Part shown: piece after piece, positions 5,571-49,864 of the stretch
Position numbering within the stretch: position 1 is the first letter of the stretch
How the letters are laid out: each line of letters begins with the position of its first letter
Origin: Isotricha intestinalis
Taxonomy: Eukaryota; Ciliophora; Litostomatea; Vestibuliferida; Isotrichidae
Length of the DNA: 64,000 nt
NCBI GenBank assembly: GCA_023807065.1
Contig: JAJJLU010000345.1
Location: 1 to 64,000 of the forward strand
Direction of reading: 5' to 3'
Notes under the pieces: generated by a model
Databases searched by the model: none
What the model was told of the DNA's origin: nothing
What the model saw: only the letters and a program-made list of their open reading frames with translations
Program-made: the position numbers and the translations under genes

Positions 5571-6227
5571 TTAACAATATTGACAATATGATTGATTTTC
5601 ATTTTTATTATTATTATCATTTTCTTCTATTTGAACTTTTTTCATTTCTCTAGCATAAGAAGAAACAACTGAATTCGAATCAATAATTCCATTTTGAATT
5701 TTATTTAATATATCTTCAGAAATATTATAAAATATTTGTCCAATATTATTTCCAGTATTTGCAGAACTTTCAATATATAATAAATTATTTTCTTCAGAAA
5801 ATTTTTGTCCTTCAGAATATTTAACTTGTCTTAAATTATCTAAATCAGTTTTATTTCCAACAATTATAACAGAACATTCACTTCTAGTATAATTTTTAGC
5901 ATCATTTAACCATGTATTAATATGATTAAAAGTTTCTAATTTTGTTATATCATATACTAAAATAATTCCTATAGCTCCTCTGTAATAATTTCTTGCTATT
6001 GCTCTAAATTTTTCTTGTCCAGCAGTGTCCCATATTTGTAGTTTAATATTTTGTTCTTTTATTTTTATTGTTTTTGCAGTAAAGTCTACTCCTATTGTTT
6101 GAGTTTTGTTTTTTTCAAATTTATTATATATAAAATGATGCATTATACATGATTTTCCTACTCCAGAATCTCCTAATATTATTAATTTAAATTCTAAATC
6201 TTCAAAAATTTTTTGTGACTCAGACAT
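5571..6227 (-). CDS. Rab GTPase, Rab4/Rab14-like
   Basis: 218 aa small GTPase with every G motif: P-loop GDSGVGKS (19-26), switch I TIGVDF, switch II WDTAGQEKFRAIARNYYRGA, NKTD, and ESSAN in place of the usual SAK. The C-terminus CQYC is a CXC-type double-geranylgeranylation site. The run KLQIWDTAGQEKFRAIARNYYRG and the INTWLNDAKNYT region are closest to the Rab2/Rab4/Rab14 branch, which acts on early and recycling endosomes and the Golgi. The loss of the lysine in the G5 motif is a mild departure, and nucleotide binding should persist. It points away from the tubulin-tail ORF across a 608-bp spacer. Confidence 0.93.
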   Translation of the reverse strand: MSESQKIFEDLEFKLIILGDSGVGKSCIMHHFIYNKFEKNKTQTIGVDFTAKTIKIKEQNIKLQIWDTAGQEKFRAIARNYYRGAIGIILVYDITKLETFNHINTWLNDAKNYTRSECSVIIVGNKTDLDNLRQVKYSEGQKFSEENNLLYIESSANTGNNIGQIFYNISEDILNKIQNGIIDSNSVVSSYAREMKKVQIEENDNNNKNENQSYCQYC

Positions 6228-6835
6228 ATTATATTTTTAAATATTAATTATTTTTATTTAGAAAAAAATGGAAATAAAGAAAAATAATGATTTTGAAAAA
6301 AAACAATGAGAGAAAAGAATAATAAATTAAATTTATGAATTAAGTTTCCTAAAATTAAATTATAGAAGATAAATAAAGTTGAAAAAAAATATTATAATGT
6401 GGAAGGGGTGGGAAGAGATGTAAAGAATCGGTTGGGAATTGAGATTTGGGATAATTTATTTTAATTAAAATTATTTTCTTTTTTTTCTCCTTTTTTTTAT
6501 ATTTTGTAATTCTTGTTTTATTTTAGTTTTTTAATATTTAATGTATACTTCAATTTATTTCTTTTTTTAAAATTAATGTCTTCTTATGTAGCCTCATTAT
6601 ATATATCTCATTATTATTCATTTAACTGTATTTCAAATATATTATTTGTACTAAATGTACCGAAAAAATGTATAAATAAAGGAATTATATAATGAATTAA
6701 CACAAATAATTTATATACAAGTATATTTAAAATAACAATAAAAATCCTCATTAAACTAACTCCCAATCACTCTCCAACCGCTCCTCTATGATTATATTCT
6801 TTTATTCTTTTATTAATATTTTATAAATTTTATAA
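6228..6835. other. Long divergent intergenic region with two GC-enriched patches
   Basis: These 608 bases separate the Rab gene (minus) from the tubulin-tail ORF (plus) and contain no ORF of note. Two patches stand out from the A/T background: G-rich 6400-6450 (including GGAAGGGGTGGGAAG and CGGTTGGGAATTGAG) and C-rich 6755-6787 (CTCCCAATCACTCTCCAACC). They are partly complementary (GGTTGG with CCAACC, TTGGG with CCCAA), so they could pair at about 300 bases apart. I see no tRNA or snRNA signature. I also see no upstream tubulin exon. Confidence 0.5.
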
Positions 6836-7069
6836 ATGTCTAACACTTATACTAAAACTAAAATTTCTACAGGGATTGCTGATAAAGCTTCTAAAATGTT
6901 TTCTAAAAGAGGTTTTGTTCATCATTATATTGGAGAAGGTCAAGAAGAATTTGAATTTGTTTCTGCATTAGAAGATGTTAATTCTTTAGTAAACGAATAT
7001 AAATCTTTAGAAAATGATTATAATAATGAAGGTGAAGAAGAAGAAAAAGAAGAAGAATCCAATAAATAA
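6836..7069 (+). CDS. Free-standing alpha-tubulin C-terminal fragment (helices H11-H12 plus acidic tail)
   Basis: 77 aa from an ATG at 6836 to a TAA. Residues 2-59 align without gaps to the last part of alpha-tubulin: SNT at the start matches the SNTT of strand S10/helix H11, then SKRGFVHHYIGEGQEEFEF matches the family's AKRAFVHWYVGEGMEEGEF, then a second helix (SALEDVNSLVNEYKSLE) and an acidic tail (about 62-77, EGEEEEKEEE). The GTPase and intermediate domains are entirely absent. No tubulin-like sequence lies in the 600 bp upstream. The frame is intact, the invariant GEG is kept, and the tail is a plausible polyglutamylation target. It may be a truncated duplicate that is still translated, or a true small protein that mimics the outer, motor-binding face of the microtubule. 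It lacks the C-terminal tyrosine. Confidence 0.75.
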   Translation: MSNTYTKTKISTGIADKASKMFSKRGFVHHYIGEGQEEFEFVSALEDVNSLVNEYKSLENDYNNEGEEEEKEEESNK

Positions 7070-48349: not shown

Positions 48350-49864
48350 ATGGGTAATTGTTGTGCTAGACAAGAAGTAGTAGAATTAGAAAGTGCAAGA
48401 AGTACTTCAGGAAGTAGTCATAGAAATTCATCAATATTATTTGAAAAATTTTCAAAGCAAACAGATTACAAAAAAAAATATGAATATATTCAAATGTTAG
48501 GATGCGGAGCATTTGGAAAAGTTAGATTATATGTAGATAGACAATGTAAAAGTTTCCGTTATGCAATAAAAACATTAAAAAAAGATTATTTCAATAAACA
48601 TATATTAGATAGTATTGAAAGAGAAGTAGATATTTTAAGAAGCTTAGATCATCCAAATATAGTAAAATACTTTGAAACATATGAAGATGATCATTTTATT
48701 CATATTGTTATGGAATATATTCCAGGAGACAATTTATTTAAATTAATAACAAATAAAAAATATTTTAAATTCACAGAAAAAGAAATATGTCAATTAATAA
48801 CATGTTTATTAAAAGCAGTATTATTCCTCCATCACAATAATATAGTTCATAGAGATATTAAACCAGAAAATATATTATTTTCAGTTCCAGGAGATTTTAA
48901 TGCTTTAAAATTAATAGATTTTGGTTTATCAATTCAAAAAAATGCAAAAAATGAAAATAGAAGAGTTGGAACACCATATTATATGAGTCCTGAAATGATT
49001 CATGGTAATTTTGTTTATGAAAGTGATATGTGGAGTATTGGAGTCATATTATTTATTATGGTTACTGGAAAACAACCTTTTAGAGCTCATGATAAAGAAG
49101 GAGTCTTTGAAAAAATTTTAAATGGAAAATATGATAAAAAATCACTTGATAAAAGCAAATGTTCTATCGAATTAAAAGATTTAATTAAAAAAACTTTAGT
49201 GAAAGATTATAAAAAAAGAATTTCAGTTGAAAGTGCTTTACAACATAAATGGTTTTCTCTATTTGAAGATAATAAAAATAATTTCCAAGTCATCGATCAA
49301 GATATTCTTGATTCATTGCAAAATTTCCAATATACAAATATATTACAAAAAGAAACATTTTATTATTTGGCAAAATTATCAAATGATAAAGAAATATTAA
49401 AATTAAAAAAAGCTTTTGAAATAATAGATAAAGATAATTCAGGTGAAATTGAATACGAAGAAATTCCAAAAATTTTTGAAGATTTAGGTATTCAAGCTTC
49501 AGAACAAGAATTAAAAAATATTTTCAATAGTTTAGATTTTCATTGTGATGGAAAAGTAAACTATTCTGAATTTTTAGCTGGAACAATATCTTCTTTAAAA
49601 ATTTATAAAGATGATAAATTATTTTCAGCTTTCAAATATTTTGATGTTAATGATGAAGGATATATTACTTCTGAATCTATTCTTTCTGCATTAAAAGCTA
49701 GTAATGTTGCTGTTGACGAAATCAGCTTAATTGATTATTTTAATAAGAGAAAATTAAAAAAAATTAATTTTGAACAATTTAAAACTCTTGTTCTTGCTAA
49801 AAATTTTGAAGAAGAAAGTATAAAAAGATTTAAATCTAAATCTATTTCTATTGAAGAATATTAA
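48350..49864 (+). CDS. Calcium-dependent protein kinase (CDPK), N-myristoylated type
   Basis: 504 aa. MGNCCARQ at the start is a strong myristoylation (Gly2) and palmitoylation (Cys4, Cys5) signal. The kinase spans about 44-302 with GCGAFG, YAIKTLKK, HRDIKPEN, DFGLS and GTPYYMSPEM, so it is active in outline. An autoinhibitory junction follows, then four EF-hand positions: DKDNSGEIEYEE (good), DFHCDGKVNYSE (good), DVNDEGYITSES (acceptable) and a last one with no loop (KRKLKKINFE). Membrane-anchored CDPKs transduce Ca2+ pulses in ciliary, secretory and cortical events of alveolates. It differs from the PH-domain kinase at 27 kb, which has its EF-hands on the other side. Confidence 0.95.
   Translation: MGNCCARQEVVELESARSTSGSSHRNSSILFEKFSKQTDYKKKYEYIQMLGCGAFGKVRLYVDRQCKSFRYAIKTLKKDYFNKHILDSIEREVDILRSLDHPNIVKYFETYEDDHFIHIVMEYIPGDNLFKLITNKKYFKFTEKEICQLITCLLKAVLFLHHNNIVHRDIKPENILFSVPGDFNALKLIDFGLSIQKNAKNENRRVGTPYYMSPEMIHGNFVYESDMWSIGVILFIMVTGKQPFRAHDKEGVFEKILNGKYDKKSLDKSKCSIELKDLIKKTLVKDYKKRISVESALQHKWFSLFEDNKNNFQVIDQDILDSLQNFQYTNILQKETFYYLAKLSNDKEILKLKKAFEIIDKDNSGEIEYEEIPKIFEDLGIQASEQELKNIFNSLDFHCDGKVNYSEFLAGTISSLKIYKDDKLFSAFKYFDVNDEGYITSESILSALKASNVAVDEISLIDYFNKRKLKKINFEQFKTLVLAKNFEEESIKRFKSKSISIEEY

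Follow-up and report, generated by a model that had tools for sequence, protein, structure and literature searches.

A small conserved ciliate gene encoding little more than a tubulin C-terminal hairpin

MicroProteins are small single-domain derivatives of larger proteins, with which they interfere, and we know of no microProtein derived from tubulin. The gene described here resembles them in that it is small and stand-alone (77-89 aa across seven distinct members) and stems from a single interaction surface within a large family of proteins; interference would be its putative action. Literature searches on truncated tubulin genes, on tubulin mimics and tubulin-peptide decoys, on microproteins from tubulin, and on short or divergent tubulins of ciliates returned none of such form, as judged by title and the start of the abstract among the matches listed, mostly from open literature, in agreement with the original prediction that no gene of this form had been described. 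The tubulin C-terminal hairpin is normally studied only within the whole protein. According to published reports, R402 and E415 of alpha-tubulin are key for dynein and the acidic cluster 414-417 is the kinesin/dynein site (PMC9975266, PMC9638805, PMC4230729), and E414 and E420 are contacted by the kinesin-4 KLP-12 (PMC9451533). The dynein study places V409 at the centre of the TOG1/2 interface, reports that V409I lowers TOG1 binding, predicts that R402-E415 stabilises the hairpin, and describes that after mutation of both R402 and E415 to Ala dynein still binds microtubules and only movement is lost (PMC9975266). The small gene analysed here is, as far as our searches reach, undescribed, and its sequence indicates that it is genuine and conserved.

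The window, which is the whole stretch of DNA analysed, comprises bases 1-64,000 of contig C145 (85,737 bases) in an assembly of 57.3 Mb and 2,153 contigs. The far end of C145 terminates in GGGGATTGG, little more than one telomere repeat, and because telomere repeat is found at both ends, C145 is probably a complete chromosome. Genome-wide, three-repeat (CCCCAAT)n matches numbered 840 in forward and 746 in reverse orientation against 0 for the reversed control, and the listed ones lay at contig ends. The stop codons of 35 window genes were TAA in 30 cases, TAG in three and TGA in two. CCCCAAT telomeres and a standard code with TAA favoured are litostome-type traits shared with the trichostome ciliate Muniziella cunhai, as reported for that species (PMC11316547). 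The window also encodes a radial-spoke-head protein and, near the telomeric start, a granulin-domain frame (1389-1835; PF00396, E 1.7e-9). [FeFe]-hydrogenase genes occur in the genome, where an [FeFe]-hydrogenase-like stretch at C933:59034-59813 carries seven stops and two stop-free matches lie elsewhere. We regard the source as an anaerobic ciliate of litostome type. The features at and around the gene, in window coordinates, are as follows.

1-30, no strand: telomere repeat (CCCCAAT)n, so that the window starts at a chromosome end
6228-6835, no strand: intergenic stretch shared with a divergent Rab-type GTPase gene (5571-6227, minus strand)
6833-6835, plus strand: in-frame TAA immediately 5' of the ATG
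6836-7069, plus strand: stand-alone tubulin C-terminal hairpin gene, 77 aa, single exon (from the frame, codon score and stand-alone relatives)
6836-6880, plus strand: N-terminal segment MSNTYTKTKISTGIA, residues 1-15, not recognisably tubulin, with M1, S2 and K7 in all seven members
6871-6872, plus strand: acceptor-like AG (TTTCTACAG/GG) within the frame, rejected as a splice site
6881-7021, plus strand: tubulin-like hairpin, residues 16-62, comprising the end of H11, the H11' loop KRGFVHHYIGEG and H12 (from the profile, the position comparison and a low-confidence model)
7022-7066, plus strand: acidic tail, residues 63-77, with no invariant column among seven family members

The frame is intact, as had been predicted, running from the ATG at 6836 to the TAA at 7067-7069 (77 codons, standard code) with coding-like codon usage. 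Its codon score, trained on the 35 window genes, was 0.58 bits per codon, a value reached by none of 290 intergenic 77-codon pieces, while 201 gene pieces averaged 0.33. None of 15 upstream open stretches of at least 15 codons scored as high, the best being one of 15 codons at 0.40 bits per codon. The MSN start is ordinary in the window, where two of 35 genes begin with MSN and nine with MS. Between the Rab gene and the hairpin gene, GC-rich patches with GGTTGG lie on opposite strands of an AT-rich stretch (6400-6450 and 6757-6790). The GC-rich motifs near 6430 and 6772 were rejected as a promoter element, CTCCAACC being present at one place in the window and GGTTGG at six, and no GC-rich 7-mer was common to more than two of 36 upstream stretches.

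The predicted match to the tubulin C-terminus was borne out by phmmer against the PDB (best alpha chain E 1.2e-9, best beta chain E 2.6e-9) and by the family profile (alpha-tubulin E 1.6e-13, beta 1.1e-12), so that by sequence the protein belongs to the H11'-H12 C-terminal hairpin. The profile alignment ran from about residue 15 of the protein onto alpha 392-451, residues ~15-62 matching the tubulin C-terminus, and identity to the genome's own full-length alpha-tubulin was 37% across query residues 3-73. In contrast, hmmscan against Pfam found no GTPase or tubulin C-terminal domain, its only match being a sub-threshold one to an unrelated DUF; by Pfam domains the protein is not a whole tubulin, and the GTPase and assembly parts are indeed absent. 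Other parts of the original description had to be narrowed. A gap-free alignment back to SNT holds for the window copy, but P0004 has one extra residue and P0009, P0013, P0014 and P0015 have longer linkers. The family profile finds no recognisable tubulin in the first ~15 residues, which removes S10/H11 as the tubulin-derived start and leaves the end of H11, H11' and H12 as the conserved unit. Descent from alpha-tubulin was suggested by the H11' half only (83 identities of 140 to alpha vs 72 to beta), whereas H12 leans to beta (44 vs 35 of 154); because H12 thus appears beta-like at least as much as alpha-like, the parent may be either subunit.

Three protein searches listed 20 proteins, 11 of which form a stand-alone family (P0002-P0009, P0013-P0015); seven of the other nine are alpha-tubulin C-terminal pieces with tubulin upstream (P0010, P0016-P0021), and P0011 and P0022 are unclassified. 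The search for other stand-alone tails that had been proposed with the original prediction thereby yielded six more distinct relatives (78-89 aa, 44-75% identity), and the seven distinct members, window copy included, are 77-89 aa long and start with MS[NS]. P0002 is omitted from the seven-member counts as near-identical to P0001, and the alignment omits four irregular or shortened proteins, namely P0005 (different start, altered GEG), P0006 (seven residues missing in H12), and P0007 and P0008 (starting at an internal Met). The relatives have in common a block near MFKKRxF(V/I)HHYIGEGxEExEFVNAL. Residues 21-46 contain 11 invariant columns of 26, compared with five of 51 elsewhere (Fisher p 0.002). 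The acidic tail (EEEEKEEE) fared differently: the window copy is acidic and shares a Glu run with P0003 and P0004, but P0009, P0013, P0014 and P0015 lack the run, the tail of P0014 is of mixed charge, and none of 15 tail columns is invariant. The best genome match of P0003, and likewise of P0014, was the window gene, and family-member queries against the genome each found one stand-alone copy among the best candidates scored. Two scans of genome contigs for DNA of relatives found none. Of two scans of viral contigs, the first gave two matches, both to the same 20 residues, and the second none; one of the two lies inside a 716-aa SbcC-like coiled-coil frame and is thus a chance match.

Divergent alpha-tubulins with KRAFVHHY(I/V)GEG (P0010, P0016, P0017 and the beetle record P0018) share W407 to His with the family and give the top tubulin scores to its profile (63-67 bits, vs 50 for the genome's own alpha). 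They differ in that tubulin continues upstream of the hairpin (PGGDLA... to the S10 strand), and these pieces are therefore parts of ordinary tubulins.

That the gene might instead be the 3'-terminal exon of a split tubulin gene is hardly conceivable, in spite of the acceptor-like TTTCTACAG/GG at 6872 inside the frame. In a tblastn search with the genome's alpha-tubulin over the entire 85,737-base contig, the hairpin gene was found at E 3.7e-11 and the sole other match (E 0.35, 25% identity) was a chance one inside frame 48350-49864, a putative kinase by sequence; the intergenic stretch at 6228-6835 held no tubulin-like stretch. Because the contig carries telomere repeat at each end and no further tubulin match of significance, the gene is very unlikely to be spliced to a tubulin body, and the predicted absence of an upstream tubulin exon is upheld. 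This absence of a tubulin body applies to the window's contig; the longest contigs of the relatives measure 567 (P0013), 537 (P0015), 763 (P0014), 2,597 (P0009), 27,293 (P0003) and 15,523 bases (P0004). Moreover, an in-frame TAA precedes the ATG; M1, S2 and K7, which lie N-terminal to the 6872 site, are invariant in all seven members; and the genome's intact alpha and two fully covered beta genes matched end to end without a stop. The acceptor at 6871-6872 was rejected on the lack of a tubulin body, the in-frame TAA and the conservation of the residues before it. A dead tubulin fragment left open by chance, the outcome that the original prediction had kept in view, is likewise extremely improbable for the window gene. 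Broken tubulin copies do occur in the genome, as do irregular relatives such as P0005 and P0006. However, the broken copies served as controls of what decay looks like here: the alpha-tubulin copy at C2063:8893-10074 is 58% identical in its longest piece and has 11 stops in one match, and that at C1843:11093-12439 is 92% identical in two long pieces in different frames. The stand-alone relatives, by contrast, keep a common start even where identity falls to 44%, all seven distinct members are open, and the codon score is gene-like. In neutral simulations from the window gene (intergenic base composition, 2,000 runs each, indels ignored), the frame was still open in 22.3% of runs at 84% amino acid identity, 8.75% at 75%, 5.25% at 70%, 2.8% at 60% and 0.6% at 48%. 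Based on the stand-alone relatives, invariant columns, codon score, simulation, decayed-copy control and best-match searches, the hairpin gene is conserved and very probably coding, and this sequence evidence makes it almost certain that the gene is real and under constraint. The C2063 copy happens to lack residues 400-420, the block that the stand-alone gene conserves, which is probably a coincidence.

Like the hairpin of alpha- and beta-tubulin, onto which residues ~15-62 align from alpha 392, the family keeps the buried stripe of H12, the GEG loop and the glutamates at 411, 414, 415 and 417. Residues M398, F404, H406, G410, E411, E414, E415, E417, A421, L428 and Y432 are present in all seven members and equal to those of the genome's alpha, and at position 402 five members have Arg and two have Lys; the motor-contact positions among these are 402, 411, 414, 415 and 417. 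The H12 hydrophobic stripe 41-44-48-51-55-58 is kept in all seven, and position 62 is hydrophobic in six. The gene product differs from alpha- and beta-tubulin in lacking a GTPase or intermediate domain, in having no recognisable H11 and an N-terminal segment of its own, and in its unconserved tail. In addition, W407 is changed to His and V409 to Ile in all seven, and the outer face of H12 is altered, E420 being replaced by Ser, Asn or Asp, 419 by Val or Phe, and 422 by Leu or Ile in every member; at 419 and 422 (residues 42 and 45 of the protein) the alpha- and beta-tubulins of the genome are polar. A low-confidence AlphaFold model from an eight-row alignment contained helices at 12-32 and 38-64 (mean pLDDT 60.4, pTM 0.28), and a Foldseek search returned two matches, neither of them significant (E 0.46 and 1.2) and both to microtubule entries. 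The hairpin may fold only when bound.

On these grounds we tentatively advance, at somewhat less than an even chance, that the gene encodes a hairpin microprotein acting through a motor that reads the hairpin. A functional single-exon gene of litostome-type ciliates would give rise to a free tubulin C-terminal hairpin (end of H11, H11' and H12), that is, a tubulin-derived microprotein retained by purifying selection. The helical hairpin would form, perhaps only upon binding, and would fill the binding site of a partner that recognises the hairpin in microtubules, the likeliest such partner being a dynein or kinesin microtubule-binding domain. It could compete in soluble form, or serve as an adaptor, with its conserved N-terminal segment (MSNTxTKTK) recruiting something else. 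More specifically, the protein might be a dedicated, diffusible mimic of the motor-docking hairpin by which dynein or kinesin is gated, for example through a motor domain being switched or blocked while off the microtubule; this we consider rather unlikely. The retained motor contacts and the lost TOG-contact residue fit the motor-docking end of the hairpin rather than the TOG contact, and a motor is favoured over a TOG domain as the putative partner because V409 is Ile in all seven members, a change reported to weaken TOG binding. Against motor mimicry count the loss in all seven members of E420, a KLP-12 contact, and the reported binding of dynein after R402 and E415 are both changed to Ala. 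Moreover, since R402-E415 is predicted in the dynein study to stabilise the hairpin, the conservation of motor contacts may serve folding alone. The weakness of the structural model, the want of a significant Foldseek match and the four irregular family members also weigh against the proposed explanation. The soluble mimic of the microtubule's outer face that had originally been proposed is possible as far as the start of H12 goes, where the motor contacts are kept, but not for the part of the face where E420 is lost and 419 and 422 are hydrophobic.

The new hydrophobic residues at 419 and 422 point to a different or extra partner surface, and together with the H12 stripe (seven of seven) and position 62 (six of seven) they would suit a neofunctional small structural protein, in which the scaffold was kept and the surface rebuilt, with H12 self-associating as a coiled coil or binding a dedicated partner, for instance one of the cortex or cilium, and with no microtubule mimicry. 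This is possible but doubtful, as it leaves the invariance of E411, E414, E415 and E417 unexplained unless they are needed for folding. It is improbable that the protein acts in tubulin assembly or folding by taking over the contacts of the genuine C-terminus with a subunit of tubulin, a TOG domain or a folding cofactor: the conserved H11' loop is kept, and V409 is reported as a TOG-contact residue in tubulin (PMC9975266), but this residue is Ile in all seven members, reported there to lower TOG1 binding, and W407 is His in all seven. A decoy for tail-modifying enzymes such as glutamylases or tyrosine ligase is less probable still, although a Glu run is present in the tails of three members (window copy, P0003, P0004). 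No tail column is invariant, the tail of P0014 is of mixed charge, and the last residue of the genome's alpha-tubulin, present in three identical copies, is Gln rather than Tyr; the titration of glutamylation or tyrosination enzymes suggested in the original prediction is therefore unlikely. The alpha-tubulin at C1974:8117-9493 ends in ...GGEEGQ, without the usual C-terminal Tyr. Alpha- and beta-tubulin genes lie head to head about 120 bases apart at three places (C1974:6653-9493, C1640:637-3477 and C1462:17409-20182), and the three alpha-tubulin proteins encoded there are identical. A divergent full-length alpha-like tubulin at C1331:5326-6663, 41% identical to the main alpha, has a changed hairpin, SKRAYIFHFIGEGLPEGQF.

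A conserved gene for little more than the tubulin C-terminal hairpin would show that this surface is detachable and re-usable, and cautions against treating every short tubulin-like frame in a ciliate genome as debris. If the gating mimic were real, little more than the motor-docking hairpin would be a natural gene product. The gene would in any case provide a natural probe for asking if motors can recognise the hairpin in the absence of the lattice, which has otherwise been addressed through mutations in whole tubulins.
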